Shown in pieces: positions 20,160 through 37,891 of a DNA stretch of 41,893 nt (positions are counted from its first letter, which is position 1; the number at the start of each line of letters is the position of its first letter). The stretch is from Sandaracinobacteroides sayramensis. Lineage in GTDB: Bacteria; Pseudomonadota; Alphaproteobacteria; Sphingomonadales; Sphingomonadaceae. The DNA is taken from positions 1-41,893 of the forward strand of contig NZ_JAKLSQ010000031.1 in the NCBI RefSeq assembly GCF_022014495.1, given 5' to 3'. A program made the translations under genes and the position numbers. The notes under the pieces were generated by a model. It was not told the DNA's origin. It saw nothing but the letters and a program-made list of their open reading frames with translations, and did not search any database.

Positions 20160-20217
20160 CCGTATCGGCCCGGAGAACCCGCACCACGCATCCCTAGGCT
20201 GCGGCGCGCTTCACCAT

Positions 20218-20235
20218 CTCCCTTTTGGTTGGGAG
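20218..20235 (+). promoter_or_regulatory. shared element site A (CTCCCTTTTGGTTGG)
   Basis: CTCCCTTTTGGTTGG followed by GAG; CTCCC and GGGAG form an inverted repeat around TTTTGGTT. It ends 62 nt before the PfpI-family start codon. A near-identical sequence lies 63 nt before the first Rieske gene (25205-25218), and weaker versions at 28362-28376 and 28399-28413. Proposed operator or promoter element of the Rieske cluster. Confidence 0.45.
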
Positions 20236-20294
20236 GCCATGGAGACGGCGCCGCAATAGTCTCCTGCATCGCGTTCTCACATTGGGGTGTCGGC

Positions 20295-20993
20295 ATGGCA
20301 AAATCTGTTCTCTTCGTTCTCACATCGCACTCGGATCTCGGCGCATCCGGCCAGAAGACCGGCACCTGGCTGGAGGAACTGGCCTCCGCCTACTACCGTT
20401 TCCTGGACAGCGGCCATGAAGTCGCCCTCGCTTCCGTGTCGGGCGGTGCGGCGCCCCTTGATCCGGCAAGCCTCGAACAACCCTGGCTGACCGAGGCCGG
20501 GGTTCGATTCCAGTCCGACCCGGCCGCAAGCGGCGCGCTGGCGTCGACCGCTGCCCTCGCCGACATCGATCCGGCGCAGTTCCACGCCGTCTATTATGTA
20601 GGCGGTGCCGGGGCGGCCTGGGATTTCCCCACCGACCCGGACGTTCGCCGCGTGGCGGAAGCCGTCTACCGCCAGGAGGGTGTGGTGTCCGGCGTCTGTC
20701 ATGGGGTGCTCGGGCTGACGACCGCGCTCGATCCGAACGGGCATCCGCTTCTGGCCGAACGCCGGGCGACGGGCGTCAGCAACAAGGAAGAAGAATTGAC
20801 GGGGTTCGACAAGCTGGTTCCGGTGCTGCCGGAAGCGCGGCTGGTGGAACTGGGCGCGAGCTACAGCGCCGCAGCCGAGCCGTTCGGCGCCCATGTCGTC
20901 AGCGACGGCCGGGTGGTGACGGGGCAGAACCCCGCTTCGGCGCCGCTGGTGGCGGAAACGGTGATCGGTCTGCTGGCGGAACCGTCCGCCTGA
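20295..20993 (+). CDS. DJ-1/PfpI-family protein (type 1 glutamine amidotransferase-like)
   Basis: A 232-residue member of the DJ-1/PfpI superfamily, in the branch of HchA-like chaperone/glyoxalase proteins. The nucleophilic cysteine is Cys135 in VSGVCHGVLGL, with His136 next to it, and an acidic pair (Glu27/Glu28 in TGTWLEELA) sits where the family's glutamate is expected. The chain begins KSVLFVLTSHSDLGASGQKTG, typical of the group. GGGGTG lies nine bases before the ATG. Family members act as methylglyoxal hydrolyases, deglycases or chaperones; which applies here is not visible. It stands 67 nt before the LuxR regulator and may be co-transcribed with it. Confidence 0.9.
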   Translation: MAKSVLFVLTSHSDLGASGQKTGTWLEELASAYYRFLDSGHEVALASVSGGAAPLDPASLEQPWLTEAGVRFQSDPAASGALASTAALADIDPAQFHAVYYVGGAGAAWDFPTDPDVRRVAEAVYRQEGVVSGVCHGVLGLTTALDPNGHPLLAERRATGVSNKEEELTGFDKLVPVLPEARLVELGASYSAAAEPFGAHVVSDGRVVTGQNPASAPLVAETVIGLLAEPSA

Positions 20994-21060
20994 TGCCAGA
21001 CTGACCGAAACAGCAAATCCTTGGGGGGGGTAGGAGCAGACATTACGCGGGAGGGAAGCG

Positions 21061-23751
21061 ATGACGAGGATTCTCAGCCTTTCACAGCCGTCGGCGGGCC
21101 TTCAGGCCGCGCCGACGGCGGCGAAGCTTCGCCCTCCCCGCCGGCAGGCCTTTCACATCGAACGCCCGCACATCCTGGCGGAAATGCAATCGCCGCCAGG
21201 GGCGGTCACGCTGCTGACCGGCCCGCCGGGCTGCGGCAAGACGACCGCGCTCGCCGACCATTTCGCCCTGGGCAAGGCGCAGGGGCGGCGCATCCTGTGG
21301 CTTTCGCTGGGGCGGCAGGAAGACGATGTCGAAGGCATGTGCGATTCGCTTCTCCTCGGCTTTTGCGGCGGAGAGATCGGCATGGAGGCGAATCTGCGCC
21401 CGCCGGAAAACACCGACATCTATGTGGACGGGCTGGAAGCCATCCATGATCCCGGTGCGCTGGCGCTGATCGAAGGCTTCCTGCTGGACGTGCCGGCCAG
21501 CAGCCGCTGCTATGCCTCGGTGCACAATCTGCGCGGAGGCGAGTTCCATTACGGCCGCTTGCGCGGGCTGGTCAGGAGCGTGCCGCACGCCCTGTTCCGG
21601 CTGTCGGATGCGGAGGCGATGCAGATGCTGGGCCCGGAATGGCACCCATGGGACATCCAGAAGCTCAACCAGATCTGCGATGGCTGGGCGGCCGGCCTGC
21701 GCTTCATGGCGCTGGACCCGGCGGCGGCGCGCAAGCTGCTGAACGACGATCGTGGAAAGGCTTCCATACCGGTCGAGATGGCGGGCTATTTCGACGATGT
21801 CGTCTGCGCCTCGCTGAGCGAGGAGGAACTGGCGGCGCTGATGGACGCCAGCGTTCTGGAGCGCTTCACCGCCGAGGCGCTGACCGGGGTGCCGGATTGC
21901 CGCTGCACCTGGCGGCTGATCGAGGATCATGTCCGATCCGGCATATTCGTGCATTATCTGGACGAAGCCCGCCGCTGGGTGGCCTTCCACCCCGCCTTCG
22001 GCCGGCACATGCGGCATCGCCTGCGCTGCCTGGATCCGGCGCGCTTCGATTCCCTGCAGAAGTTCGCCGCCTCCTGGTTCCAGAAGAACGGTTTCGCGGT
22101 GGAGGCGATCCGCCACGCCTCGCAACTGACCGATCCGGTGCTTTCCGCCCGGATCATGGAGGATGCCGGCGCGCTGCTGGCGGAACTGGGCAACGGCCCG
22201 TTCCTGAACTGCGAAAAGCCGATTCCGGTCGAGCAGGCGGCAGGCCTTCCGATGGCCTTCCTCAGCCAGATATATCTGCAGGTGCGCACGGGGCGAATCG
22301 TGGAAGCGCGGCAGGCCTTCGAGCAGGTGCGCACCCTGACCCGGGGTTTCACCGATTTCGGCCAGGGAACGAATGCCGGCACGGAGGCGGTGTTCGCCCG
22401 CATCATCGAGACCGTCCTCGACATCACCGAGGATCGCGCGGTCGACAATGAGCGGATCGCCACGCTCGAGGACATGCTGACGCGATATGTCGGCACCAAC
22501 CCGGTGACGGCGGCCAGCGTCGCCTCGCTGCTGGCCATCTCCTATATCGAGCTGTGCCGATACTCCGAGGCCGCGACCGTCTGCGACATCGGCATGAACG
22601 CGCTGCGCGAGCTCGGCTCCACCAAGGTGGCGATCTTCCTCAGGATCCACCAGGCCGCGGTCGCCCTTGCCTGCGAGACCGTCAGCAAGGCCGTGCTCTA
22701 TATCGAGGATGGCTGCCGGCTGGCGCATGCGGAAAGCGACTTCGGCCGCTATGAAGTCCTCACCACGCAGATCCTGCGCGCGGAACTGCATTATGAAGCG
22801 AACGAGCTGGAAATGGCCCGGGCGCTTCTGGACCAGTCCGTGCCCGAGCTGAACGGAATCGGCGGCTGGCTTTCCCTGCGCGCGTCGGCCTTCACGGTGG
22901 CGGCTTCCATCGCCGGGATGGAAGGCGGCTATGAAGCGGCCGACGACTGTCTCCGCCAGGGCGAGCAGTTCGCGCGCCTCATGAACCTGCCCCGGCTGGA
23001 GCAGTTGCTGCTGATCGCGCGGATGCGGGAATACACCCGCGCCGGCATGTGGCGCGAGGCGACCGCGCTTCTGGAGCGGGCCGACTATCGCAACCTCATC
23101 GACCGGGAGAATATGTCGTTCGCCGAGCTGCGCTTCCAGCTTCCGGCCCTGCTGGAAACGGCGCGCTTCCTGGTGGAGCTGGGGCGGCCCACCGAGGCCG
23201 CGGCCTATCTGGAGCGCGTGAACAAGGCCTTCCTGGAGGAAAGCGACGTTCGGCTGCGCTTCACCTTCCGGCTGCTGGCGATGCGGATCGCCTTCAGCGT
23301 CAGGCGCTACAACGCCGCGGTCGAGCATATGCTGGTGGCGCTGGAGCTTGCGGTGAGAGCCGGGCTGCTGCGCCGCGCCGTGACCAACCGGGCGGCGATA
23401 CTGGAGGTCTACGACTGGTCGGTGCGCAACGGCCGGAAGCATCCCGTGCCGGTCTCGCGCTTCGTGAACGACGTGCTGCGCGGCGCCGACGCCAGCGAAT
23501 GCGGCAGCGTCATCCTCAACCGTCGCCCCCGGCATGGGCCGGCGGCCGTCACGCCCAATTTCACGCTGAGCCCGCGCGAAACGGAAATCATGGTGCTGAT
23601 CGCCGAAGGCTATATGACCAAGGAAATCGCGACGCGGCTGGTCATTTCCGAAGGCACGGTGAAGACGCACCGCAAGAAGATCCATGAGAAGCTGGGCGTT
23701 CTGAGCAAATCGCAGGCGATCGCCCGGGCGAGGGAGTTGCTGATAATCTAG
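21061..23751 (+). CDS. large ATP-binding LuxR-family regulator (MalT type)
   Basis: An 896-residue LAL regulator. The N-terminal NTPase has Walker A GPPGCGKTT at 54-62 and a Walker-B-like IYVDGLEAI near residue 123. The middle (about 330-810) is alpha-helical repeat typical of the TPR sensor domain of MalT-like proteins. The LuxR helix-turn-helix takes the last 64 residues (LSPRETEIMVLIAEGYMTKE, then IATRLVISEGTVKTHRKKIH). Such proteins are ligand- and ATP-dependent activators of catabolic genes. GGGAGGGAAG precedes the ATG. The gene sits among two Rieske oxygenases and a TonB receptor, so it is the likely activator of that cluster. The ligand is unknown. Confidence 0.93.
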   Translation: MTRILSLSQPSAGLQAAPTAAKLRPPRRQAFHIERPHILAEMQSPPGAVTLLTGPPGCGKTTALADHFALGKAQGRRILWLSLGRQEDDVEGMCDSLLLGFCGGEIGMEANLRPPENTDIYVDGLEAIHDPGALALIEGFLLDVPASSRCYASVHNLRGGEFHYGRLRGLVRSVPHALFRLSDAEAMQMLGPEWHPWDIQKLNQICDGWAAGLRFMALDPAAARKLLNDDRGKASIPVEMAGYFDDVVCASLSEEELAALMDASVLERFTAEALTGVPDCRCTWRLIEDHVRSGIFVHYLDEARRWVAFHPAFGRHMRHRLRCLDPARFDSLQKFAASWFQKNGFAVEAIRHASQLTDPVLSARIMEDAGALLAELGNGPFLNCEKPIPVEQAAGLPMAFLSQIYLQVRTGRIVEARQAFEQVRTLTRGFTDFGQGTNAGTEAVFARIIETVLDITEDRAVDNERIATLEDMLTRYVGTNPVTAASVASLLAISYIELCRYSEAATVCDIGMNALRELGSTKVAIFLRIHQAAVALACETVSKAVLYIEDGCRLAHAESDFGRYEVLTTQILRAELHYEANELEMARALLDQSVPELNGIGGWLSLRASAFTVAASIAGMEGGYEAADDCLRQGEQFARLMNLPRLEQLLLIARMREYTRAGMWREATALLERADYRNLIDRENMSFAELRFQLPALLETARFLVELGRPTEAAAYLERVNKAFLEESDVRLRFTFRLLAMRIAFSVRRYNAAVEHMLVALELAVRAGLLRRAVTNRAAILEVYDWSVRNGRKHPVPVSRFVNDVLRGADASECGSVILNRRPRHGPAAVTPNFTLSPRETEIMVLIAEGYMTKEIATRLVISEGTVKTHRKKIHEKLGVLSKSQAIARARELLII

Positions 23752-23809
23752 CCTATCCACCCTTTCGCCGAGTGGCGCGGGTGCCGCGCCTCCTCTTGTC
23801 ATCGCCCGC

Positions 23810-25159
23810 ATGGCAAGAAGCAGCACGAACCTCGACCCGATGGCGCTGGGACGCAGCCTGTGGCAACGGACGGCGCCCCCCTTCGAGCGGGCGGGCGGGC
23901 ATTTCCATGAGGCCGCCGCGGAAGTCGCCATTGTCGGCGGCGGCTACTCCGGGCTCTCGGCGGCGCTGCATCTGGCGATGGACGGGCGCGACGTGGCGCT
24001 GGTCGAGGCGGAGGAACCCGGCGCCGGCGCTTCCGGGCGCAACGCGGCCGGATGGCTTCCGCAATATCTGGACCGGACCCCGGCCGATGTCGAGAAGCTG
24101 CTGGGTGGGGAGCGCGGTCGGGCGCTCAACGCGATGATCGCCGAATCCGCGCGGCTTGTGCCGAAAATCGTCCGCCGCCACCGGATGCAGATGGACATGC
24201 GGCAATCCGGAATCCTCGTCGCTTCCGGAGAGCCGGCGCAGGCCGGGGCCGCGCGCGAACTGGCCGCCGCGTGGAACGCGCGCGGCGGCGCCGTGCGTTT
24301 CACCGGCACGGCCGAGGTGCAGCGCCTCGGGGGCAGCGACCGCTTCGCCCATGGGCTGATGTTCGAAGAAGCGGGAACGCTCAATCCGCTGGCCTATGCC
24401 CGGGGGCTGGCCCATGCCGCTTCGCTTGCCGGCGCCCGGCTTCACTGCGGCGCGCCGGCGCTTCATCTGCACCCCGCTGGCGATGGCTGGCGGCTGGAAA
24501 CGGCGGCCGGGCGCATCCGGGCCCGGCATGTGCTGATCGCGACGGAGGGCCATGAAGCCAATGACAGCCTCTGGCCCGGGCTTTCGCGCGCCTGCTATCG
24601 CCTGCCGATGGCGGTGGTCGCCTCGGAGCCGGTTCCGGCGCTCGTCAGCCGGCTGATGCCGGCGGCGGTGCCGATCGCCGACGGCAACAAGGCCAATCCG
24701 CTTTGGATCATGGCCGATGCCGAAGGCCGCCTCGTCGCCTCCCTGCCGCCGCCCCGTTCCGACGACCTTGCCGCCGGAGCAGTCGCCCGGCATGTCGAGG
24801 CGAAGCTCAACCGCCTGCACCCCGGGCTTCCGGCCATTCCATGGTCGCGCTTCTGGATGGGGCATGTGGCCCTGTCCGCCGAGCGTATCCCGGCGCTGCG
24901 CGAACTCGCCCCCGGCGTGCACGCGATCGGCGGCTACTCCGGGCAGGGGATCGGGGCCGCGACGGCCGCCGGCCGGGAATATGCGCGCCTGATCGCCGCC
25001 GGCGGCGACCCGGCCGCAAGCCGCCTGCCGCTGCTGCCGCTTTCCACGGTGCCGATGCGGCGCGCCGTCCCCTGGCTCTACCGCCATGTCCTGGCGCCGC
25101 TCGGCCGGGCAACCGACCGGAGCTATCGCCGGCCGCCGGCCGCCGCCGTGGAGGACTGA
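23810..25159 (+). CDS. FAD-dependent oxidoreductase (DAO family)
   Basis: A 449-residue flavoprotein. The Rossmann motif is VAIVGGGYSGLSAALHLA (GGGYSG at 43-48), followed by the acidic VEAEEPGAGASGRNAAG. The C-terminal FAD-binding part is HAIGGYSGQGIGAATAAGRE (about residue 380-400). The layout is like the DAO group that includes gamma-glutamylputrescine oxidoreductase (PuuB) and other secondary-amine oxidases. A role in oxidising an amine or amino-acid substrate is likely, but the substrate cannot be read. It follows the LuxR gene after 58 bp on the same strand, so the two may be co-expressed. No signal peptide; cytoplasmic. Confidence 0.9.
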   Translation: MARSSTNLDPMALGRSLWQRTAPPFERAGGHFHEAAAEVAIVGGGYSGLSAALHLAMDGRDVALVEAEEPGAGASGRNAAGWLPQYLDRTPADVEKLLGGERGRALNAMIAESARLVPKIVRRHRMQMDMRQSGILVASGEPAQAGAARELAAAWNARGGAVRFTGTAEVQRLGGSDRFAHGLMFEEAGTLNPLAYARGLAHAASLAGARLHCGAPALHLHPAGDGWRLETAAGRIRARHVLIATEGHEANDSLWPGLSRACYRLPMAVVASEPVPALVSRLMPAAVPIADGNKANPLWIMADAEGRLVASLPPPRSDDLAAGAVARHVEAKLNRLHPGLPAIPWSRFWMGHVALSAERIPALRELAPGVHAIGGYSGQGIGAATAAGREYARLIAAGGDPAASRLPLLPLSTVPMRRAVPWLYRHVLAPLGRATDRSYRRPPAAAVED

Positions 25160-25204
25160 CCCTGACTGGCCGGCGACGGGCCTCCCCCCCTCCCGCCGGC
25201 CGTC

Positions 25205-25218
25205 CCCCCTTTGGTTGG
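25205..25218 (+). promoter_or_regulatory. shared element site B (CCCCCTTTGGTTGG)
   Basis: CCCCCTTTGGTTGG in the 122-bp gap before the first Rieske gene, ending 63 nt before its ATG. It matches site A (62 nt before its gene) in sequence, orientation and distance. It may be an activator site or part of a promoter; no clear -10 element was identified. Confidence 0.5.
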
Positions 25219-25281
25219 CTTTCTGGGCCTCGCCGCGCACCTCATGTTTTGCCCATCGACAAAGGCGATGAGGGTAAAGCC

Positions 25282-26325
25282 ATGCACGGAACCGGTAGCG
25301 ACGAGAAAGACAGGATCTACCCCCGCGAGCCCATTCCGGTCGCGGAACGCAGGCGCGTCACCAGCACGGAGGTGCCGCACGAAGGGCATGGCGGGCTTTT
25401 CAGCCAGTCCTGGTTCCCGATCGCGCTGTCGTCGGAAGTGCCGGTCGGCGCCATCGTCGGCAAGGACTTCCTGGACGGCCGGGTGGTCGTCTATCGCGGC
25501 GCCGACGGCGTGGTGCGGATCCAGAGCGCCTATTGCCCGCACATAGGCGCCGACCTTTCCGTCGGCACGGTGGTGGAGAACCGTGTGCAATGCGCCTTCC
25601 ACCGCTGGGAATATGATGAGAACGGCATGTGCGTGAAAACCGGCGCCGGCCTGCCGCCGCCGCGCGACGCCTGCCTCTTCACCTTCCCGGCGCAGGAACG
25701 CTTCGGGATGATCTATGTGTTCAACGGCACCGAGCCATTGTGGGACCTGCCGGATTTCGAATATGCCGACGACGAGCTCGTCGCCAGCCCGTTCGTCTCC
25801 GAGCTCTACACCTGCGACCCTTGGATCTTCGCCTCCAACACGCCCGACACCCAGCATATCGCCGTGGTGCACGGCTTCCGCTTCAAGGCGAACGACCCCT
25901 CCGAGGCGATCAACTGGGAAGAGTGGGGCTTCCGCATGAAAATCGACGCCTGGCACCAGAACGACGAGGAACTCGCCTGGGAAGCCGGCATCTACGGCAG
26001 CAGCATCTTCCTGCAGCAGGGCCTGACCGACGGCTGGTGGATGGGGATCGCCGCCGGCTTCTCGCTGCCCCGCCCCGGCACGCACCATGTGTTCCTGTCG
26101 GTGCTGGTCCGGAATGTGGAGACGGAAGGCGGCAAGAGCATCGCCGAACGGCTGGAATATGGCCGGATGCTGCTGGCGCGCACGGCGGCCGAAGACAAGC
26201 CCATCCTGGATTCGATCCACCACCGGGTCGGCTATCTGACGAAGGCCGACACGGCGTTGGCCAAATATTTCAATTTCATGAAGAAATACCCGCGCGCGCA
26301 CCCTTCGCGCGACTTCATCAACTGA
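25282..26325 (+). CDS. Rieske non-haem iron oxygenase, alpha subunit (first)
   Basis: A 347-residue Rieske oxygenase. The [2Fe-2S] ligands are Cys85/His87 (CPHIGADLS) and Cys104/His107 (CAFHRWEY). The mononuclear iron site is in NTPDTQHIAVVH (Asp189 bridge, His192, His197). The length and single-chain look fit the monooxygenase-type group (KshA/VanA/Pao-like) and not large ring-dioxygenase alpha subunits with a beta partner. Such enzymes need electrons from a ferredoxin or reductase; none is encoded in this window. GAGGG precedes the ATG at 25282. It is the first gene of a Rieske-SnoaL-SRPBCC run (gaps 28 and 5 nt). Substrate unknown. Confidence 0.93.
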   Translation: MHGTGSDEKDRIYPREPIPVAERRRVTSTEVPHEGHGGLFSQSWFPIALSSEVPVGAIVGKDFLDGRVVVYRGADGVVRIQSAYCPHIGADLSVGTVVENRVQCAFHRWEYDENGMCVKTGAGLPPPRDACLFTFPAQERFGMIYVFNGTEPLWDLPDFEYADDELVASPFVSELYTCDPWIFASNTPDTQHIAVVHGFRFKANDPSEAINWEEWGFRMKIDAWHQNDEELAWEAGIYGSSIFLQQGLTDGWWMGIAAGFSLPRPGTHHVFLSVLVRNVETEGGKSIAERLEYGRMLLARTAAEDKPILDSIHHRVGYLTKADTALAKYFNFMKKYPRAHPSRDFIN

Positions 26326-26353
26326 TCTTTGCAACCGAGCGAAAGCGACAGCC

Positions 26354-26755
26354 ATGCCCATCGACGCGCCCGACGATATCAAGCGCATCATCAAGGAACG
26401 CAGCGACATCTTCGAACGCCATTTCGCCGCCGGCGACGCCGCCGCGCTGGTGCGCGACTATTATGTGCCGGATTCGATGGCGCCGCTGGTCTCGGCCGGC
26501 GACGGTCCGGCGATCCTTGGCCATGCCGCGATCACCAGCCTGTTCGAAGCCTTCACCGCCGGCTTCGAGAAGGCCCGGCAGGTGCCGCGCTTCATCAGCG
26601 CCGGCACCGACCTCGCCTATGAAGTCTCCAACTCCTATCTGACGCCCAAAGGCGGCGGGGACGAGGTGGAGTATCGCTATGTCGCCACCTGGCGGCGCTG
26701 CGACGATGGCTGGCGGGTGGAGGCGGACTTCTTCGCCCCCGGCCCGCTGGTCTAG
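26354..26755 (+). CDS. SnoaL/NTF2-like protein
   Basis: A 133-residue small alpha+beta-barrel protein of the SnoaL/ketosteroid-isomerase/DUF4440 group. It opens with the helix IKRIIKERSDIFERHFAAGD, then AALVRDYYVPDSMAPLVSAG and the GHAAITSLFEAFTAGFEKAR helix, and closes with the paired strands EYRYVATWRRCDDGWRVEAD, the usual fold end of this group. Members are isomerases, hydrolases or small Rieske-associated beta-type subunits. Its place directly behind a Rieske gene suggests a partner role, either as a processing enzyme or as a small subunit; this is inference. It ends five nt before the SRPBCC gene. Confidence 0.85.
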   Translation: MPIDAPDDIKRIIKERSDIFERHFAAGDAAALVRDYYVPDSMAPLVSAGDGPAILGHAAITSLFEAFTAGFEKARQVPRFISAGTDLAYEVSNSYLTPKGGGDEVEYRYVATWRRCDDGWRVEADFFAPGPLV

Positions 26756-26760
26756 CCGCC

Positions 26761-27186
26761 ATGGCCGAGTTCGAGACCGCCGCCCGCTTCGAGGCGCCGG
26801 CCGCCGCCATATGGCCGTTTGTCAGTTGGGACGGCATGCCGTGCCTCGTGGAGGGCGGCTTCTTCACGGCGGCCGATTTCCCGGCCGGCCCGGAAATCCG
26901 CCCCGGCGCGCTCCGCCGTGTTTCCACGGCCAATGGCGTGTTCGTGGAACGGCTGGAGGAATATCGGGCGGAGGATCATTATTACCGCTACCGCCTGATC
27001 GACACGGGGCCTTTCCCCCTCACGGACTATGTGGGCGTGGTGGTCGTCACGCCGGCCGGTTCCGGCTGCTGCCTGAAGTTCGGCCACAGCGCCACGCTGG
27101 TGGATACAGACGCCGCAAGCTGGCGGGAAAGCTGGCTGGCGATCGAAAACCAGGTGTTCGACTTCATCCGCGGGCGTCTTGCCTGA
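26761..27186 (+). CDS. SRPBCC-family protein (first)
   Basis: A 141-residue START/polyketide-cyclase-like protein. The opening strand and helix (FETAARFEAPAAAIWPFVSW) and the C-terminal long helix (SWRESWLAIENQVFDFIRGR) are typical of the SRPBCC ligand-binding cavity fold. The central segment YRLIDTGPFPLTDYVGVVVV, then TPAG, is shared with the 148-residue protein at 30693 (PVTDYRGLVKVTPAG), so the two are paralogues. Members bind hydrophobic ligands; some are cyclases or aromatases. Last gene of the Rieske operon; a strong palindrome begins at its final codons (27181-27234). Confidence 0.85.
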   Translation: MAEFETAARFEAPAAAIWPFVSWDGMPCLVEGGFFTAADFPAGPEIRPGALRRVSTANGVFVERLEEYRAEDHYYRYRLIDTGPFPLTDYVGVVVVTPAGSGCCLKFGHSATLVDTDAASWRESWLAIENQVFDFIRGRLA

Positions 27187-27234
27187 ACGGGCGTTTGCCG
27201 GCGGGCCAGCCCGCCGGCAAACGCCGCTTCAGGC
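27181..27234. terminator. bidirectional terminator hairpin spanning both stop codons
   Basis: A 17-bp perfect stem, GGCGTTTGCCGGCGGGC (27190-27206), pairs with 27209-27225 across a two-base gap (CA). The outer flanks GCCTGAA (27181-27187) and TTCAGGC (27228-27234) also pair. These flanks hold the stop of the first SRPBCC gene (TGA) on the plus strand and that of the second Rieske gene on the minus strand. Each strand therefore ends GCC-TGA in mirror image. No T-tract follows, so it may act as a transcript end-protecting structure or a bidirectional block. Confidence 0.8.
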
Positions 27235-28254
27235 TTCTTCCGCCCGCAAGCGGTCCAGCGTGCGGCGGACGAGAATCCCGGCCTGGTCGGTCTTCAGGAT
27301 CAGCGGCTGCATCTCCCAGAAATCGCGCCCGGCCATCCGCGCCTGCACGGCCGCGATCATCGGCTCATCCTCTTTGCGGAAGGCGTGCTCGGCGATAGCC
27401 TCCAGCGCCTTCGTCACCTCGTCGTTGCCCGGCGCGAAGGTGCGGAACAGCAGGTAGCGGTAGACGCTGTTCGCCTCGTCGACCGGAGTCAGCATGTGCA
27501 CGCTGCCCAGAAAGCCCCCCTCCGCGCGCGGGCGCCCCGTCAGCGTCACCCCCACTTCCAGATAATAGGCGCCCGGGGCGTCCCAGCGCATCTCGTTCCA
27601 GTAGTCCACCCGGTCGCCGGCCTGCACCACAGCCGGCAGCACGAACAGCGTCGGCGCGGCGCCATCGGGGTTCCAGCGGTTGGAATAGAGGCGATTGCCT
27701 TCCTGCCAGGTCCGCAGCGTGCCCGTGGCGATGGATTCATTCCCGAGCGTCGTCGGGTGCAGGAACTGGCCGTGGGTCAGGTCCATCAGATTGTCGAGGA
27801 TCAGCTTGTAGTTGAGCGGCTGATGCATGATTTTCTCGCCGGACATCGTGTAGATGTCGATCTGGTTGAGCCAGGGGAAATCCGGGATCAGGCTTTCGTC
27901 CGCCCGCTCCGGCTCGCCCATCCAGATCCAGATGAAACGGTCGCGCTCCACGACCGGATAGGACCGCACCCGCGCCGCGCCCAGCCGCTTGCCGGGGTCG
28001 AAGGGGTTGTGGGCGCAGCGCCCCTCGGCGTTGAAGCGCAGGCCATGATAGGGGCATTCGATCGTGTCGCCGACGATCTTTCCCATGTGCAGCGGCGCGA
28101 AGCGGTGGGGGCAGGTGTCGGAAAGGGCGATCGGCTGGCCGGCCTCGCCGCGGAACAGCAGGATATGCTCCCCGATGATCCGGGCATGGAAAGGCTCGCC
28201 ACGCAACTCGCTGCCCCAGGCGGCGGCATACCAGCAGTTCCTGACGAAACCCAT
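27229..28254 (-). CDS. Rieske non-haem iron oxygenase, alpha subunit (second, VanA-like)
   Basis: A 341-residue Rieske protein of the vanillate O-demethylase oxygenase type. The [2Fe-2S] motif is Cys48/His50 (DTCPHRFAPL) and Cys67/His70 (CPYHGLRF). The catalytic iron motif is LILDNLMDLTHGQFLH, with Asn155, Asp158, His161 and His166. The start ATG at 28254 (MGFVRNCWYAAAWGSEL) is typical of the family and follows GGGGAAAGGG; the frame is open to 28536 but the extra part is not family-like. VanA-type enzymes demethylate or hydroxylate aromatic substrates and need a VanB-like reductase, which is absent here. It faces the first Rieske operon across the 27181-27234 hairpin. Substrate unknown. Confidence 0.93.
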   Translation of the reverse strand: MGFVRNCWYAAAWGSELRGEPFHARIIGEHILLFRGEAGQPIALSDTCPHRFAPLHMGKIVGDTIECPYHGLRFNAEGRCAHNPFDPGKRLGAARVRSYPVVERDRFIWIWMGEPERADESLIPDFPWLNQIDIYTMSGEKIMHQPLNYKLILDNLMDLTHGQFLHPTTLGNESIATGTLRTWQEGNRLYSNRWNPDGAAPTLFVLPAVVQAGDRVDYWNEMRWDAPGAYYLEVGVTLTGRPRAEGGFLGSVHMLTPVDEANSVYRYLLFRTFAPGNDEVTKALEAIAEHAFRKEDEPMIAAVQARMAGRDFWEMQPLILKTDQAGILVRRTLDRLRAEEA

Positions 28255-28361
28255 CCCTTTCCCCTTTTCCTGTAGCCCTGCCGGCCGGCGGCGAACGCCG
28301 TTTCCGGGAGGATGATCCAGATTTTCCGGCAAGGCTGCCGCCGCCCTCGCCTGCCGTCCAC

Positions 28362-28376
28362 TAAACCAAAGGGAGG
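28362..28376 (-). promoter_or_regulatory. shared element site C (CTCCCTTTGGTTTA, minus strand)
   Basis: On the minus strand this reads CTCCCTTTGGTTTA, matching the core of sites A and B. It lies about 107 nt before the second Rieske start (28254) in the 298-bp gap shared with the divergent TonB receptor gene. Confidence 0.45.
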
Positions 28377-28398
28377 AGCCGGCTGCCGGCGAACCTCT

Positions 28399-28426
28399 CC
28401 CCCTTTTTGTTGACTGGAGCGCTCCA
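28399..28426 (+). promoter_or_regulatory. shared element site D plus adjacent palindrome
   Basis: CCCCCTTTTTGTTGA at 28399-28413 is a weaker match to the CCC(C/T)TTT(G/T)GTT element, pointing toward the TonB receptor gene. It is followed immediately by a perfect 12-bp palindrome, TGGAGCGCTCCA, at 28415-28426. TTGACT at 28410-28415 could also be a -35 hexamer. The remainder of 28255-28552 shows no gene. Confidence 0.4.
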
Positions 28427-28552
28427 CTTTCCGGTGGCGTCATTGCCGGCATATTGCTGCGCGGCATCATCCGAAGGGCATCATAAGCTCCGGGGATGCA
28501 GAGGCGGGCAAGGGGAGGTGTCGGAAAAAACGCCAAGTCAGGGAGAGCTGGG

Positions 28553-30670
28553 GTGAATCATATCTGGATTTCGTCGACCGCAATGGCGCTTGTGGTCGCA
28601 ACGGCGCCCGCGCATGCGCAACCGGCAGGTGGCGGGGAAACCGACGGCAGCCGGAACGCCGAGCAGGATCTGGTGGTGACGGCGCGCAGATGGTCGGAAA
28701 GCATCCGCGAAATCCCCGACACCATCCAGGCCTTTTCCTCCGCCTCGCTGGAGCGCGCCGGAGTCGAATCCATCTCCGACATGACGCAGATGGTCTCCGG
28801 CTTCCGGGTGGTCGAAGCGCAGCAGCCCGGCGTCGTTCTCATCAACATCCGCGGCATCGGCCAGGTCAGGAACGGCGAATCCCCGATCGCGGTGGTGGTG
28901 GACGGCGTGCAGCAGAATTCGCCCAACCAGATCACACAGGACCTGCTCGACGTGGAGCGGATCGAAGTGCTGAAAGGCCCGCAAGGCTCTCTCTACGGCC
29001 GCAACGCCATCGGCGGCGCCATCATCATCACCACCAAGCCCCCCGCCGAGGAATTCGGCGGCAGCGCCGAGGCCGGCTATGCGCAGGGGAATGAGTTCAG
29101 CGCCCGCGCGACGGTTTCCGGCCCGCTCGGGGAAAGGATGGGCTTCCGCCTCGGCGGCAGCTACCTGAACCGCGACGGCCAGATCTACAACAGCACGCTC
29201 GACACCAAGGTCGATTACAACGAAGTCTGGGCGGTGCGCGGCAGCCTGGTCGCCAATCCGGTCGACGCCGTCACCGTCGACCTGCGGGGCAGCCACTACA
29301 ATCAGGAAGCCGGCGCCTCCTGGTATCGCCCCGGCCCCGCCAATGCCCCGCGCGAGCCGGTGATCGGCAACCTGCTGGGCTGGGCCGAGCGCAAGCTGAC
29401 CGACATCTCCGGCAAGGTGGAAGTCGATCTGGGCGGGCCGACGCTGACATCCATCACCGCCTATTCCAAAGTGAAGTCCGACCTGTTCGAGGAGCTGGAC
29501 TGGGAGCCGCTCGATCTCGTCGCCGCGACCCAGCTTCTGGATGTGGAAGCCTGGAGCCAGGAGTTCCGCCTGACCTCGGACGACAGCGGGCCGCTGCGCT
29601 GGATGGCGGGGCTCTACTATCTGGACACGAGACGCTTCCTCGACACCACCGTCTATATGCAGCCCGACCTCACCGGCCTGCCCGCCCCGATCGCCGCCTC
29701 CCGCCTGGCCACGCGCGACCGCAACCGCGCCTATGCCGCCTTCGGCCAGCTCACCTACAAGCTGACGGATGCGCTGGAGCTGACCGCCGGCCTGCGCTAC
29801 GATATCGACCGGCGCAAGCAGCATGACCTGACTCCGCCCACGCCGACCGCGCCGACGCAGTTCAAGGCCACCTACCGGTCGCTGCAGCCGAAATTCTCCC
29901 TCGCCTACAGCTTCGACGACGGCACCCTCGCCTATGCCACGGTGGCCAAGGGCTTCCGCAGCGGCGGCTTCAACTCGAACGATGTCGTCACCCGGGAATT
30001 CCGCAAGGAAGAGCTGTGGAGCTACGAGCTGGGCTTCAAGACGGCCTTCGCCGACAACAGGCTGTATCTGAACGGCGCCCTGTTCTTCATCGACATTTCC
30101 GACCGGCAGGTGGCGGGCCTCGACCTGACGACCGGCCCGGCGCAGTTCATCGCCAACCCCATCCCGCGCTCGACGGTGCGCGGCGCCGAGATCGAGCTCA
30201 ACGCCCGCCCGCTCGAAGGGCTGGACCTGTCGTTCGGCGGCAGTTTCCTCAGCACCAGGATCAACGAATATGACCAGTCGGTGTTCGCCGGGACGGCCGC
30301 CAACGGAGACTTCACCGGCAACCGGCTGAACCAGGTGCCGCGCTATTCCATCAACGCCGCCGCCCAGTATACGGCGGAACTGGGCGGCCGCAGCCGCCTG
30401 ATCTCCCGCATGGACGTGACCGGCTGGGGCGGCGATTATTATTGGGAGATCAACAACGCCGACCTGCAGAACCCGGTGTGGCTGTTCAACGCCCGGCTGA
30501 CCTGGGAAATCGGCGACGTCTCGGTGACGGCCTTCGCCCGGAACCTGTTCAACCGCCGCTACGACCTGGAGTTCGTGCCGGTCGAATTCGCTGGCACGGT
30601 GACCGGCGAGGATGTCGGCGGCGCCGCGCCGCCGCGCCAGCTCGGCGCCAGCTTCAAATTGCTTTTCTGA
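28553..30670 (+). CDS. TonB-dependent receptor (first)
   Basis: A roughly 705-residue outer-membrane receptor. A signal peptide (IWISSTAMALVVATAPAHAQ) precedes the plug, whose start has the sphingomonad pattern QDLVVTARRW. Plug landmarks are LINIRGIGQVRNGES and VERIEVLKGPQGSLYGRNAIGG; the barrel ends in a C-terminal aromatic residue (SFKLLF). The GTG at 28553 has GGGAGAG upstream and gives a clean signal peptide; the ATG at 28496 would add 19 charged residues. The plug and barrel are of the CirA/Fiu-like or small-molecule type without siderophore-specific signs. Divergent from the second Rieske gene and close to the first SRPBCC paralogue, so likely the importer of the cluster's substrate. 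Confidence 0.93.
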   Translation: MNHIWISSTAMALVVATAPAHAQPAGGGETDGSRNAEQDLVVTARRWSESIREIPDTIQAFSSASLERAGVESISDMTQMVSGFRVVEAQQPGVVLINIRGIGQVRNGESPIAVVVDGVQQNSPNQITQDLLDVERIEVLKGPQGSLYGRNAIGGAIIITTKPPAEEFGGSAEAGYAQGNEFSARATVSGPLGERMGFRLGGSYLNRDGQIYNSTLDTKVDYNEVWAVRGSLVANPVDAVTVDLRGSHYNQEAGASWYRPGPANAPREPVIGNLLGWAERKLTDISGKVEVDLGGPTLTSITAYSKVKSDLFEELDWEPLDLVAATQLLDVEAWSQEFRLTSDDSGPLRWMAGLYYLDTRRFLDTTVYMQPDLTGLPAPIAASRLATRDRNRAYAAFGQLTYKLTDALELTAGLRYDIDRRKQHDLTPPTPTAPTQFKATYRSLQPKFSLAYSFDDGTLAYATVAKGFRSGGFNSNDVVTREFRKEELWSYELGFKTAFADNRLYLNGALFFIDISDRQVAGLDLTTGPAQFIANPIPRSTVRGAEIELNARPLEGLDLSFGGSFLSTRINEYDQSVFAGTAANGDFTGNRLNQVPRYSINAAAQYTAELGGRSRLISRMDVTGWGGDYYWEINNADLQNPVWLFNARLTWEIGDVSVTAFARNLFNRRYDLEFVPVEFAGTVTGEDVGGAAPPRQLGASFKLLF

Positions 30671-33553: not shown

Positions 33554-34846
33554 ATGACCAGCAACGCCACCCTTGCAGATGCCGCGCCCGCCGCGCCGGA
33601 AAACTGGTCCCCGCGCGCGCTCTACACCGTCGCCTGCCTCGGCATCACCGCCGGCGTGCAGATGAGCGACATGGGCCTGCAGGCGCTGTCGCTTTCGTCC
33701 ATCCAGCAGAGCTTCGGAATCAGCGACTCCTGGCTCGGCGCGCTGCAGGGGCTGGCCGGCGTGCTGGTGGGCAGCGCCATCGCCATTCCGCTGGCCCGCT
33801 TCGCCGACCGCTTCTCGCGCAAGCGCGTGCTCCTCTGCCTGATCGCCGCCTCCACGGCGATGATGGTGCTGAGCGCGCTCGCCCCCAGCTTCCCGCTGTT
33901 CTTCCTCGGCCGCTCCGCCGCCGGAATCACCGAATTCGCGATGATCCCGCTCGTCTATTCGATGATCCCCGACCTCGCGCCCGAGCGGCACCGGGTCGCC
34001 ACCAACCTCAGCTTCGCGGCGCTGATGGCGCTGGGCGCCAGCGGCGGCTTCTATTTCGGCGGCGCCATCATCGCCACGGCCGACGGGCTGTTCGGCCTGC
34101 CGATCGAGCCCTGGCGCAAGGGCTTCCTGCTCTTGTCCTTCGCCGGCCTGCCGCTGCTGCTGCTCGCCGCCTTCACGCTGGACCCAGCGCGGCGCATCGT
34201 CAGTTCGGACCCGAAGACGACCGGCGCGCTGACGCTGTTCCTGCGGCAGCGCTGGCAGGCGGTCGGCCTGTTCGTCGGCGTGGCGGGGGCGCTGATGGTG
34301 GCGGTGCAGGCGCTCAACCAGTTGATCACGCTGGCGCTGGAGCGCGAGTTCCACGCCGAAGTCGCGCGGATCGGCCAGGCGATGGGCATGATCGTGCTGG
34401 TGACGACCATCGGCTGCCTCCCCATCGCCTGGTTCCTGGACAGGCTGCTGTCGCGGCGCTTCGGGCGGGCGGCGCGGCCGCTCATCATGGGGCTGAGCGC
34501 CGTCGCCGCCATTCCCTTCGCTTTCCTGCTGCTGGCCGCGCCAACGCTGGAACAGGCGCTGATGGCGGTGGCGGCCTTCATGTTCATGACCTGCACGGCG
34601 AACGCCCTCGTCCCCACCATGCTGCAGGATCTGACGCCCGCCACGCTGCGCGCCCGCAGCTTCGCGATCTGGAGCTTCGTCGTCTCCATCTTCAGCGCCA
34701 CGGGGCCGCTGCTGGCCGGCACGCTGTCTGACCGGGTGACCGGCAACCACCTGCTGAACGCCATCACCCTGACGGCGATCCCGGCGCTGGCGATTTCCGC
34801 CACCTGCGCCGTGCGCTCGTTCCTCAGGGCGCGGGCGGAGGGGTAG
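33554..34846 (+). CDS. major facilitator superfamily transporter
   Basis: A 430-residue integral membrane carrier with about twelve hydrophobic segments. The family motif A between helices 2 and 3 is LARFADRFSRKRVLL, and the TM4 region is SAAGITEFAMIPLVYSMIPD. The cytoplasmic mid loop holds DPARRIVSSDPKTTG before helix 7. It is a proton-linked uptake or export carrier; the substrate is not seen. Close to the siderophore receptor (divergent), it could export the siderophore or import a degradation product. Its 3' end overlaps the convergent peptidase gene by 23 nt (34824-34846). Confidence 0.9.
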   Translation: MTSNATLADAAPAAPENWSPRALYTVACLGITAGVQMSDMGLQALSLSSIQQSFGISDSWLGALQGLAGVLVGSAIAIPLARFADRFSRKRVLLCLIAASTAMMVLSALAPSFPLFFLGRSAAGITEFAMIPLVYSMIPDLAPERHRVATNLSFAALMALGASGGFYFGGAIIATADGLFGLPIEPWRKGFLLLSFAGLPLLLLAAFTLDPARRIVSSDPKTTGALTLFLRQRWQAVGLFVGVAGALMVAVQALNQLITLALEREFHAEVARIGQAMGMIVLVTTIGCLPIAWFLDRLLSRRFGRAARPLIMGLSAVAAIPFAFLLLAAPTLEQALMAVAAFMFMTCTANALVPTMLQDLTPATLRARSFAIWSFVVSIFSATGPLLAGTLSDRVTGNHLLNAITLTAIPALAISATCAVRSFLRARAEG

Positions 34847-36950
34847 CGCCGCCGACGCAGTGCCGGGCGAAGGCCCAGAGAGTGGAGACTTCGGCGAAAC
34901 GGCTGTCGAGGTCCCCGCTCGACTGGTGGCCGCTGTCGGGGTGGAGCCACAGCAGGGCCGGGCTGCCGCCGGCCGCGCGATGGCGGATGTTGGCGATCAG
35001 CTTCCCCGGCTCCCAATAGGGCACGCGGTCGTCCTTCAGCCCTGCCGTGCACAGCAAGGGCGGGTAAGCGCCGGGGCCGACATTCTCGTAAGGGGAAATG
35101 GAGGCGATATAGTCATAGGCTTGCGGGTCCGAGAGCGGATCGCCCCAGTCGGGGCGGAACAGCGGCACCAGCGGGTGTTCGGCGTCGCTCATGGTGTTCA
35201 GCATGTCGACGAAGGGCACCTGCGCGATCACCCCGGCCCACATCGACGGCTCGATGTTCATCGCCCCGCACACCAGCAGCCCGCCGGCCGAGCCGCCATG
35301 CGCCACGATCTTGCCCGGCGCGGCGAGGCCGGCTTCCTGAAGGTGCCGGGCGCAGGCGATGAAGTCGGTCATGGAATTGCGCTTCCGCATCCGCCGCCCT
35401 TCCAGGAACCAGCGCCGGCCCTTTTCCGAACCGCCGCGCACATGGGCGATGGCGTAGCGGAAGCCCGCGTCCACCAGCACGGTCGCCGGCAGGGAGAAGA
35501 GCGGCTCGCTGGAGAAGCCATAGGCGCCATAGCCCGTCAGCAGCAGCGGCGCCGGGGCGTTCTCCATGTCCCGGCGCGACAGCAGCGTGATCGGCACCAT
35601 CGCCCCGTCCAGCGCCCTCGCCTCCAGCCGCTCGACGACATAATTTTCCGGGTCGAAGCCGCGCAGCCTTTCCTGCCCCACCGTGCGGCGGGCGCCGGTT
35701 GCAAGCTCGATGTCGATCCAGCGCGGCGGGTTGGCCGGCGTCTGATGCACGATGCGCACCTGCCCTGCCCCATATTCCTGCGCCGGCAGAAGCTGGATGG
35801 CGTAAGCGGGGTCGTCGAAGCCGATCAGCTTCTCGGCGCCGTCGGCCTGCATCAGCACCAGCCGGTGCAGGCCGTCCACCCGCTCCAGCCGCACCAGCGC
35901 TTCGGCGAAGGGCAGGATGGCGACGATCTGCACGCCTTCGCGGTGCGGCACCAGTTCGCCCAGCGCCTCGAAGCCGCTCATCCCCAGCGCCAGCAGCTTG
36001 CGGTCGATGGCGGCGTCTTCGTCCGTCAGCAGCAGCAGCATTCCGGCCCATTCGTTCACTTCATAGGTCACGCCCCGCCGGCGCGGGCGGACGACCATCG
36101 GCTCGGCCTCTTCCGCGTCGGCGGCGATCAGCCGCACCTCGGCCATGTCCGGCCCGGCCATGGTCAGCGCCACGAAGCTGTCGGCGGCGGTGCGGGCCAC
36201 ATGCAGGAAGATCGCCGGATCCTGCTCTTCATAGACCAGCGCCGCCTCGCCGCCTTCCACGGGCGTGCGGTAGACACGGGTGGGCCGGCTGTGCGCGTCC
36301 CGCCAGATCCAGAACAGATGGCGGGAGGACGGCGAGAAGGTGAAGCCGCGATAGCCGAAGGCGTCGCCCTCCACGAGGACGCGGATCTCGCCCGTCCGCA
36401 TGTCCAGCCGGCAGATGCGGTGTCGGTCGTTGCCCACCAGATCCTCGGCCCAGGCGAAGTAGCGGTCGTCCGGGCTGTGCTGATGCTCGATCGCCCGGTA
36501 ATAGGCATGGCCCTCGGCGCGCGCCGCCTCGTCGAACAGCAGCGGCTCCTCTCCTGTGGCCGAAGTGCGGGTGAAGATTCGATGCGCGCCGCCCGCCGGA
36601 ATCCGGAAGCTGTAGCGCCACCCCCTCGACGAGACCGGCAGCGGAATGTCGATTTCCGGCGCCAGCGCGTGCATTCGCGCGTTGAAATCGGCGGCGAGCG
36701 GGGCGAGCGGCCGCAGCATCGCCTCCGCATAAGCCATCTCGGCCTGCAGATGCGCGCGCAGCCTCGGCGGCAGCCCCTCCATCGTGCGCGAGCCGGACTC
36801 GGGGATGAACTTCATCCAGGCATAGGGGTCGTTCCGCTGCCGCCCCAGTTGCACGATCTCATGGTCCAGGCGCGGTGCCTCGGGCGCGGCGATGCCCGGC
36901 CAGACGGGTCGGGGGGCGGAAGGCTCGGGAAGTGCAGGCATGGCCACCAT
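34824..36950 (-). CDS. prolyl-oligopeptidase family (S9A) peptidase, oligopeptidase-B-like
   Basis: About 708 residues from the ATG at 36950 (a second ATG lies at 36941). The N-terminal seven-blade beta-propeller covers most of residues 60-430; RNDPYAWMKF near the start is the characteristic entry motif. The C-terminal alpha/beta-hydrolase domain has the nucleophile in AHGGSAGGLL (Ser at about residue 551), an Asp in KDDRVPYWEP (about 641) and a His in DSGHQSSG (about 673). Such enzymes cleave short peptides, after Arg/Lys in the oligopeptidase B branch. There is no signal peptide, so it is cytoplasmic. Proximity to a siderophore receptor and MFS gene suggests peptide or peptide-siderophore processing; inferred. 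Divergent from araC. Confidence 0.93.
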   Translation of the reverse strand: MVAMPALPEPSAPRPVWPGIAAPEAPRLDHEIVQLGRQRNDPYAWMKFIPESGSRTMEGLPPRLRAHLQAEMAYAEAMLRPLAPLAADFNARMHALAPEIDIPLPVSSRGWRYSFRIPAGGAHRIFTRTSATGEEPLLFDEAARAEGHAYYRAIEHQHSPDDRYFAWAEDLVGNDRHRICRLDMRTGEIRVLVEGDAFGYRGFTFSPSSRHLFWIWRDAHSRPTRVYRTPVEGGEAALVYEEQDPAIFLHVARTAADSFVALTMAGPDMAEVRLIAADAEEAEPMVVRPRRRGVTYEVNEWAGMLLLLTDEDAAIDRKLLALGMSGFEALGELVPHREGVQIVAILPFAEALVRLERVDGLHRLVLMQADGAEKLIGFDDPAYAIQLLPAQEYGAGQVRIVHQTPANPPRWIDIELATGARRTVGQERLRGFDPENYVVERLEARALDGAMVPITLLSRRDMENAPAPLLLTGYGAYGFSSEPLFSLPATVLVDAGFRYAIAHVRGGSEKGRRWFLEGRRMRKRNSMTDFIACARHLQEAGLAAPGKIVAHGGSAGGLLVCGAMNIEPSMWAGVIAQVPFVDMLNTMSDAEHPLVPLFRPDWGDPLSDPQAYDYIASISPYENVGPGAYPPLLCTAGLKDDRVPYWEPGKLIANIRHRAAGGSPALLWLHPDSGHQSSGDLDSRFAEVSTLWAFARHCVGGATPPPAP

Positions 36951-37049
36951 CGTCAAAGGGATTTCAGGCCCGCCCGCATAGCATGGCGCGAGCGCCGCGT
37001 GACGCCATTCGGGCCGAACTTCCGGCCGGCAGGGCCAATTTCGCGAGTC

Positions 37050-37069
37050 TCTTGCAATTATCTTGCAAT
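37050..37069. promoter_or_regulatory. direct-repeat operator TCTTGCAAT x2 before araC
   Basis: TCTTGCAAT at 37050-37058 and 37061-37069, starting 11 bp apart. The repeats lie between the peptidase start (36950) and the araC start (37124). Direct repeats at one-turn spacing are typical for AraC-family sites, so it may be the autoregulatory or divergent-promoter operator. Confidence 0.5.
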
Positions 37070-37123
37070 AGCATAAAAATGGCCCGTTCCACCCAGAGCG
37101 CCCCACATCGTCGAAATCAGGCC

Positions 37124-37891
37124 ATGAAGCACAGCAGCGACATTCTCGGCAGCGATCGGCCCGTGCTGGCGCTTCACGACGAATATCCGGCCGGCTTCGT
37201 CGACCCGATGCACCGCCACCGGCATGTGCAGATCCTCTACGCCTGCACCGGGATCATGGCGGTGCGCACCGCGCGCGCCAGCTATGTCGTGCCGCCGAAC
37301 CGGGCCTTGTGGATTCCGTCCGGGGTCGATCATGAAGTCCGCTGCCGCAGCGCCGTCTCGCTCCGCACACTGTATCTCCGGCCAGACGATCTGCCTCCGA
37401 ACAGCATGGGCGGCGCGGCGCCGAGCCGGGTGTTCGAAGTCTCCGCCCTGCTGCGGGCGCTCATCCTGGAAATGGGGGAGCTGGGCACCGACTATCCGCT
37501 GGAAGGCCGGGCCGGGCATGTCGTGTCGCTGCTGCTGGACGAGATCGACCGCATCCCCGGCACGCGGCACGAGCTTTCCATGCCCGGCGACCCGCGCCTG
37601 CTGCGGGTCTGCGGCAGCCTGCTGGAGCACCCCTCCGACCCGCGCGACATAGACGAGTGGGCGCGGGTGGCCGGCATGGGGCGGCGCACCTTCACCCGCT
37701 CGTTCAAGCGCGAGACCGGCGTCGGCTTCGCCATGTGGCGGCAGCAGGCGCGGCTGATGGAAGCGATGGCGCTCCTCGCCTCGGGCACGCCCATCGCCCA
37801 GGTGGCGTTCGAGGTAGGCTATGACAGCCCCAGCAGCTTCAGCGCCATGTTCCGCCGCGCCTTCGGCGTGTCCCCCAGCCGCTACAGCTGA
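37124..37891 (+). CDS. AraC-family transcriptional regulator
   Basis: A 255-residue regulator. The N-terminal cupin domain starts HDEYPAGFVDPMHRHRHVQI with a conserved-looking HRH pair and VVPPNRALWIPSGVDHEV. The C-terminal double helix-turn-helix is residues 155-255: DEWARVAGMGRRTFTRSFKR, then FEVGYDSPSSFSAMFRRAFG, then SPSRYS, the canonical AraC signature. The ATG at 37124 is annotated; an earlier one at 37079 is possible. It is divergent from the S9 peptidase and is the likely activator of that gene and perhaps of the siderophore receptor. Confidence 0.93.
   Translation: MKHSSDILGSDRPVLALHDEYPAGFVDPMHRHRHVQILYACTGIMAVRTARASYVVPPNRALWIPSGVDHEVRCRSAVSLRTLYLRPDDLPPNSMGGAAPSRVFEVSALLRALILEMGELGTDYPLEGRAGHVVSLLLDEIDRIPGTRHELSMPGDPRLLRVCGSLLEHPSDPRDIDEWARVAGMGRRTFTRSFKRETGVGFAMWRQQARLMEAMALLASGTPIAQVAFEVGYDSPSSFSAMFRRAFGVSPSRYS

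Follow-up and report, generated by a model that had tools for sequence, protein, structure and literature searches.

A conserved 18-bp element as the probable operator of a MalT-like LuxR-family regulator in a Rieske oxygenase/TonB receptor cluster of Sandaracinobacteroides sayramensis

Large ATP-binding regulators of the LuxR family (LAL regulators) have been described as a family that is poorly studied (PMC3282765). The closest described systems are those of MalT from Escherichia coli and TpdR from Rhodococcus jostii. According to a second report (PMC6099782), MalT contacts two directly repeated decanucleotides, and TpdR is a LAL activator of tetramethylpyrazine catabolism, tied to a substrate-induced catabolic operon, with a 15-nt direct repeat, TnnAAnnGCGGAnTC, as its proposed site. 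We analyzed a stretch of 41,893 nucleotides from S. sayramensis (contig NZ_JAKLSQ010000031.1; hereafter, the window) in which the gene of a LAL protein (P0001; MalT-like, of the STAND type) lies within a cluster of Rieske oxygenase and TonB-dependent receptor genes, and in which an element of about 18 bp, TCYCCCYTTTNGTTGRST, stands before four apparent transcription units. On the strength of sequence comparison, we consider it quite likely that this element is the operator of P0001.

The comparison with the two described systems shows both likeness and difference. P0001 shares with MalT the LAL/STAND architecture, with an N-terminal ATPase and a C-terminal LuxR-type helix-turn-helix (HTH) domain, and MalT (8bob) is its best match among solved structures (9.6e-13). 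However, it scores only 152.2 bits against the 537-bit cut-off of the MalT family, and the operator sequence and target genes of MalT are unlike those of this cluster. The MalT box has the consensus GGGGAKGAGG, which is not enriched in the window (12 matches at up to one mismatch versus 10.9 expected), and it was rejected as the element. The locus resembles the TpdR system in that a LAL regulator is tied to a catabolic operon, whereas the repeat TnnAAnnGCGGAnTC is unrelated to the element (PMC6099782). Among the papers listed by a literature search, judged by titles and the start of abstracts, none describes this regulon. P0001 has the features of a LAL protein: large size (896 aa), N-terminal Walker A and B motifs, and a C-terminal LuxR-type HTH domain (Pfam GerE, 63.9 bits, residues 835-888). 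The Walker A motif is GPPGCGKT at residues 54-61 (GPPGSGKT in four orthologues); the Walker B candidate is IYVDGLE at residues 120-126, a pattern that misses the orthologues, yet D123, G124, L125 and E126 are invariant. The match to TPR_MalT is weak (34.2 bits, under the 45-bit cut-off).

Four sites had been picked out by a sequence-only reading of the window, which described them as CCC(C/T)TTT(G/T)GTT and suggested a LAL-type operator. Our search located all four at the positions it gave, each before a different unit. The pattern is exact at three of them (starting at 20220, 25206 and 28401 on the plus strand), whereas the minus-strand site (28364-28374) has one mismatch, TCCCTTTGGTT, and its range had been quoted one base too long. 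The distances of 62 and 63 nt to the ATG codons at 20295 and 25282 are correct; the minus-strand site ends 107 nt ahead of the Rieske2 ATG (28254), and the TonB site ends 139 nt ahead of the likely GTG start at 28553. With gene families assigned by a profile scan and transcription units predicted from spacing, there are four apparent units (PfpI-LAL; Rieske1-SnoaL-SRPBCC; Rieske2; TonB receptor), each with one box pointing toward its gene. Boxes 3 and 4 are arranged divergently, with their 18-mers offset by 38 bp and each on the same strand as its gene.

At the genome scale, the element is restricted to the cluster in its exact consensus form. The 3.82-Mb genome contains the 13-base consensus YCCYTTTDGTTKR in exact form four times, each time in the 8-kb cluster, and CCCYTTTKGTTK three times, again only in the cluster, versus none for the reversed control. 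With one mismatch, YCCYTTTDGTTKR matches 50 times (one of these being box 1 in a shifted register), compared to 52 for its reversed control. The looser pattern YCCYTTWDGTTKR has six further exact matches in the same genome, all of them CCCTTTAAGTTTG inside a separate repeated element. We also built a weight matrix from the eight sites of related genomes only, with three of these genomes down-weighted, and ran it over both strands of the window; the four sites took ranks 1-4 (31.2, 19.8, 16.8 and 16.1; next 14.2). A score at or above that of the fourth site occurs at 4 per 10 million positions in first-order Markov sequence, or an expected 0.03 times in a window and about 3 times in a genome. 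It should be noted that, on its own, this matrix could not pick out the weakest boxes across the genome, because about three such scores are expected there.

Four of 396 other family genomes in the sample carry an orthologue of the regulator, with 53% identity in G253 and 50-51% in G340, G220 and G174. Sampling within genera gave 3 of 14 genomes in the genus of G220 and 1 of 5 in that of G253, the same genomes in both cases, and the orthologues span three genera, the window's own included. An order-wide draw of 396 genomes, overlapping that of the family, contained no LAL match at E<=1e-60 beyond the window's own genome; a search of genome contigs returned one distant relative from Chloroflexi, and 37 plasmid records matched, all below 60% identity (24-25% among the 20 matches listed). 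The element precedes both PfpI-LAL and TonB in all four related genomes. Before PfpI it reads CCCCCTTTTAGTTGA in G340 and G220, CTCCCTTTTAGTTGA in G174 and CCCCCTTAAGTTGA in G253; before TonB it reads CCCCCTTTTTGTTGACTG in G340, G220 and G174, and the 18 bases of box 4 precede TonB identically in all four genomes. The 19-nt word TCCCCCTTTTTGTTGACTG is the longest one common to the TonB upstream regions of the window and of G340, G220 and G253, compared to at most 13 nt in 300 shuffles each, and the next longest words have 8-9 nt. The presence of the same element before matching genes in relatives that carry the regulator makes it probable that the regulator docks there.

The arrangement of target genes differs between the window and its relatives. 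In G340, G220 and G174, the order is PfpI-LAL-TonB-Rieske1, followed by a relative of the SRPBCC gene; with Rieske1 directly behind TonB, one copy of the element would serve both genes, presumably through a shared transcript. The window differs in that TonB and Rieske1 lie apart, each behind its own copy. In G253, the regulator is on contig C20, and a further element lies on contig C2 before a pair of TonB (75%) and Rieske1 (62%) genes; the element marks target genes even apart from the regulator, unless C2 and C20 adjoin in the real genome. With this case, it also points to members of the regulon outside the neighborhood of the regulator gene.

Six of 397 genomes contain the strict form of the element, TCYCCCTTTTDGTTGAS. 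Five are those with a LAL orthologue, which hold 8 of the 9 hits, all before PfpI or TonB; the sixth is G369. The strict form is thus present in 5/5 genomes with the regulator versus 1/392 without a LAL match at E<=1e-50; this pattern was built from known sites, which favors the five, and the near absence elsewhere is the informative part. These data bear on three explanations of the four sites. The first, that they are a chance resemblance picked by eye, fits the modest similarity inside the window alone; it is ruled out for practical purposes by the confinement of the element genome-wide, the recovery of the four sites by a matrix trained on relatives, and the conservation across genera. The second, a shared promoter motif of general use, had been offered by the sequence-only reading as its alternative and is disfavored: no exact consensus match in the genome lies outside the cluster, which rules out a general motif, and the strict form is nearly absent from regulator-free genomes. 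The third, the LAL-type operator, is supported by co-occurrence and by conservation of the DNA-binding domain, which suggest binding. Two outcomes named beforehand as contradicting it, a random density genome-wide and absence from orthologous clusters, did not occur: all four exact consensus matches are inside the cluster, and sites are found in all four other sampled genomes with the regulator.

Another transcription factor, encoded elsewhere, could also be the one that binds the element, with the LAL gene merely one of its targets. Indeed, the PfpI-LAL pair sits behind a copy of the element in all five genomes and is a target in any reading. We nevertheless regard the outside factor as unlikely. 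The strict element tracks the LAL orthologue, which is the only regulator recognized beside the box in all five genomes (the other neighbors in the relatives being called open reading frames (ORFs) with no family annotation), and the HTH domain is far better conserved than the whole protein, with 82-83% identity among orthologues versus 50-53%. Conservation of the domain that would read the DNA fits that of the box, although it is common for an HTH domain to be more conserved than other parts of a protein.

The geometry of the promoters was compared as well. In the five genomes, the GTT end of the element lies 60, 60, 60, 62 and 64 nt from the PfpI ATG; the distance to Rieske1 in the window is 65 nt, and it is 109 nt for Rieske2 and 100-159 nt for TonB, the starts of which are uncertain. 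Eight less redundant promoters share GCAT at +26 to +29 past GTT (G26 in 6, C27 in 7, A28 in 7 and T29 in 5 of the promoters). The best six-column block was equalled in 3 of 5000 rotations, and the best dinucleotide in 245 of 20,000. If this block is the -10 region, the center of the box would lie about 40-45 bp before the transcription start, the position of a class II activator. Because the -10-like block follows at a fixed distance, the element may nonetheless form the upstream half of a promoter specific to the regulon. A further reading, in which the element is the -35 part of an alternative-sigma promoter with GCAT as -10, draws on the common spacing of the second block in the eight promoters and on the fixed orientation; we consider it very unlikely, as a -35 hexamer would be shorter than the conserved region of about 18 bp, the GTTGA end and GCAT are about 23 nt apart, and the 18 window proteins scanned include no sigma factor. 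A spacing of about 23 nt exceeds that usual for sigma factors.

Assuming that the element is the operator of P0001, activation could proceed as follows. The inducer is probably a substrate of the Rieske oxygenases that enters through the TonB receptor; its binding would lead the ATP-bound regulator to oligomerize, and the C-terminal HTH domains would then bind the asymmetric box, which would overlap a weak -35 region or lie immediately upstream of it. The bound protein would recruit RNA polymerase by class II activation, and the copy before PfpI-LAL would provide positive autoregulation. Two other operator designs were tried and rejected. A palindrome is ruled out, since only 2-8 of 18 positions match their own reverse complement. 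A tandem operator was rejected as well: from -120 to +60 of 12 boxes, no second full box was found on the same strand, the best score being 5.5 bits (a one-base register shift) versus 23-31 for the boxes, in a scan that would miss a shorter or half box (the TonB promoter of G220 repeats ATCCCCC 18 nt upstream).

Related clusters make it possible to ask how far the element extends beyond this regulator. At E<=1e-50, 22 of 397 genomes contain relatives of Rieske1, with 41 matches listed, and we examined 13 sister loci without a P0001 orthologue (e.g., L122, L124, L118 and L123), five of them from genomes with an orthologue elsewhere. All 13 contain a Rieske1 relative and a TonB receptor, 9 have a divergent LAL match and 2 have a PfpI relative. 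None of the 13 has an exact match to YCCYTTWDGTTKR; the one-mismatch matches outside well-supported ORFs are at 8220 in L121 and at 14030 in L113 (in a doubtful small ORF, 155 nt ahead of TonB). Seven sister-cluster LAL proteins were aligned with P0001, with identities of 19-22% overall and 38-44% in the HTH domain. We tentatively suggest that P0001 might represent a STAND-type LuxR activator that acts via a single asymmetric box per promoter, in contrast to the tandem boxes of MalT, within a diversified group of Rieske/TonB clusters of one bacterial family having a private operator for each LAL lineage. If this is correct, private operators would let several related clusters in one genome be switched separately. 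The concrete 18-bp site, the defined regulon, the promoter geometry and a regulator with orthologues make binding, the inducer and the single-box question directly testable. The Rieske1/TonB loci with a divergent LAL are L113, L115, L117-L120 and L122-L124, and there are up to several such clusters per genome. In L113, a relative of Rieske2 (35%) adjoins Rieske1 and TonB.

Several observations weigh against the assignment of the element to P0001, or against the geometry and the private operators suggested for it. The case from the window alone is modest: there are 4 matches at up to one mismatch versus 0.86 expected, equalled in 1 of 100 shuffles, and the pattern was fitted after the sites were known, as were the consensus patterns and part of the statistics in general. 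When the four upstream regions are compared with one another, only one of the six pairs, Rieske1/Rieske2, has a common word that clearly exceeds the length seen in shuffles (6/300), and this word differs from the box. Across species, the longest words common to the PfpI upstream regions have 8 nt in all four pairs, no longer than in shuffles; the boxes there are alike in consensus but contain no long identical stretch. The regulator occurs in five genomes only, three of which belong to one genus and have very similar clusters, leaving about three independent lineages. Nor can the related promoters, including the TonB promoters from two relatives, be counted as independent, and the window's PfpI and TonB promoters fit the -10-like block poorly. 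MalT promoters have direct-repeat boxes, whereas here there is one full box per promoter. A regulator encoded outside the cluster could bind the element, and one strict match lies in G369, where it sits 8 nt ahead of an MFS-like start codon; no match to the LAL protein was found in that genome at E<=1e-8, an empty result that is weak, as the search had no positive control. Finally, sister clusters L112, L113, L115 and L119 contain weaker partial matches: with a matrix from all sites, the best scores were 21.1 (L112), 20.1 (L115 and L119) and 18.1 (L113), compared to 23.4-31.3 for the true sites, on which the matrix was trained and toward which the comparison leans. The best score of L112 is at the 3' end of a DAO relative, and that of L115, which was inspected, is the complement of the ribosome-binding region before TonB.

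Table 1. Predicted regulatory sites and genes of the cluster (positions in the window; offsets of the -10-like blocks are counted from GTT)
Feature	Position	Strand	Remarks
Box 1, putative operator TCTCCCTTTTGGTTGGGA	20217..20234	+	before PfpI-LAL; 64 nt from GTT end to PfpI ATG
Putative -10-like block of box 1, CAATAG	20254..20259	+	+24..+29; fits GCAT poorly
DJ-1/PfpI family protein	20295..20993	+	leads the predicted PfpI-LAL unit
LAL regulator P0001 (LuxR family, MalT-like STAND), 896 aa	21061..23751	+	
FAD-dependent oxidoreductase (DAO)	23810..25159	+	without a box of its own; 58 nt past the LAL stop
Box 2, putative operator TCCCCCCTTTGGTTGGCT	25203..25220	+	before Rieske1; 65 nt from GTT end to ATG
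Putative -10-like block of box 2, CCTCAT, running into CATGTT	25240..25245	+	+24..+29
Rieske1 oxygenase	25282..26325	+	
SnoaL/DUF4440-like protein	26354..26755	+	
SRPBCC (Polyketide_cyc2) protein	26761..27186	+	
Rieske2 oxygenase	27229..28254	-	nearest solved relatives include dicamba O-demethylase DdmC
Putative -10-like block of box 3	28335..28340	-	+24..+29
Box 3, putative operator TCCTCCCTTTGGTTTAGT	28360..28377	-	before Rieske2
Box 4, putative operator TCCCCCTTTTTGTTGACT	28398..28415	+	before TonB receptor
Putative -10-like block of box 4	28435..28440	+	+24..+29; poor fit
TonB-dependent receptor	28553..30670	+	GTG start likely; signal peptide judged by eye

The features of the cluster are listed in Table 1. 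The DAO gene probably belongs to the predicted LAL transcription unit, and the TonB receptor has a possible alternative start, an ATG upstream at 28496. Rieske2 matches solved structures with E-values of 1e-61 (DdmC) and 5e-65 (7qwt), and no separate relative of it was found in the g32 regulon stretches. Elsewhere in the window, at 34824-37891, a prolyl oligopeptidase gene on the minus strand overlaps the called start of an AraC-family regulator ORF on the plus strand, and an MFS transporter and a second TonB receptor adjoin this pair.

Stray matches were followed with the looser pattern YCCYTTWDGTTKR in 21 genomes. It gave 73 matches, of which 12 are regulon sites, versus 42 for the reversed control; the excess includes the regulon sites, a six-copy repeat and the recurrent CCCTTTTTGTTTG. 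Matches outside the regulon number 47 in the 16 regulator-free genomes and 14 in the five genomes with the regulator, about 3 per genome in both. Among these 61 matches, 34 were viewed in context: 6 are in the repeat of the window's own genome, 12 are inside a called ORF and 16 are outside called ORFs, two of the latter near distant TonB homologues (L063 and L078). From the 34 of 61 matches viewed, we claim no further regulon member. On contig 151 of G340, a site ahead of a small gene reaches no more than 11 bits. The word CCCTTTTTGTTTG recurs in several regulator-free genomes, and its copies in L054, L055 and L061 are outside called ORFs, with no evident link to the regulon. The repeat in the window's own genome, CCCCTTGACCCCCTTTAAGTTTGCAGAAGAGCCCCCC, is about 40 bp long and is present with small differences in six copies (L046-L051) on contigs C1, C4, C12, C34 (twice) and C39. 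At least three of these copies lie between the ends of convergent called genes, and the repeat is perhaps terminator-like or another type of intergenic repeat.

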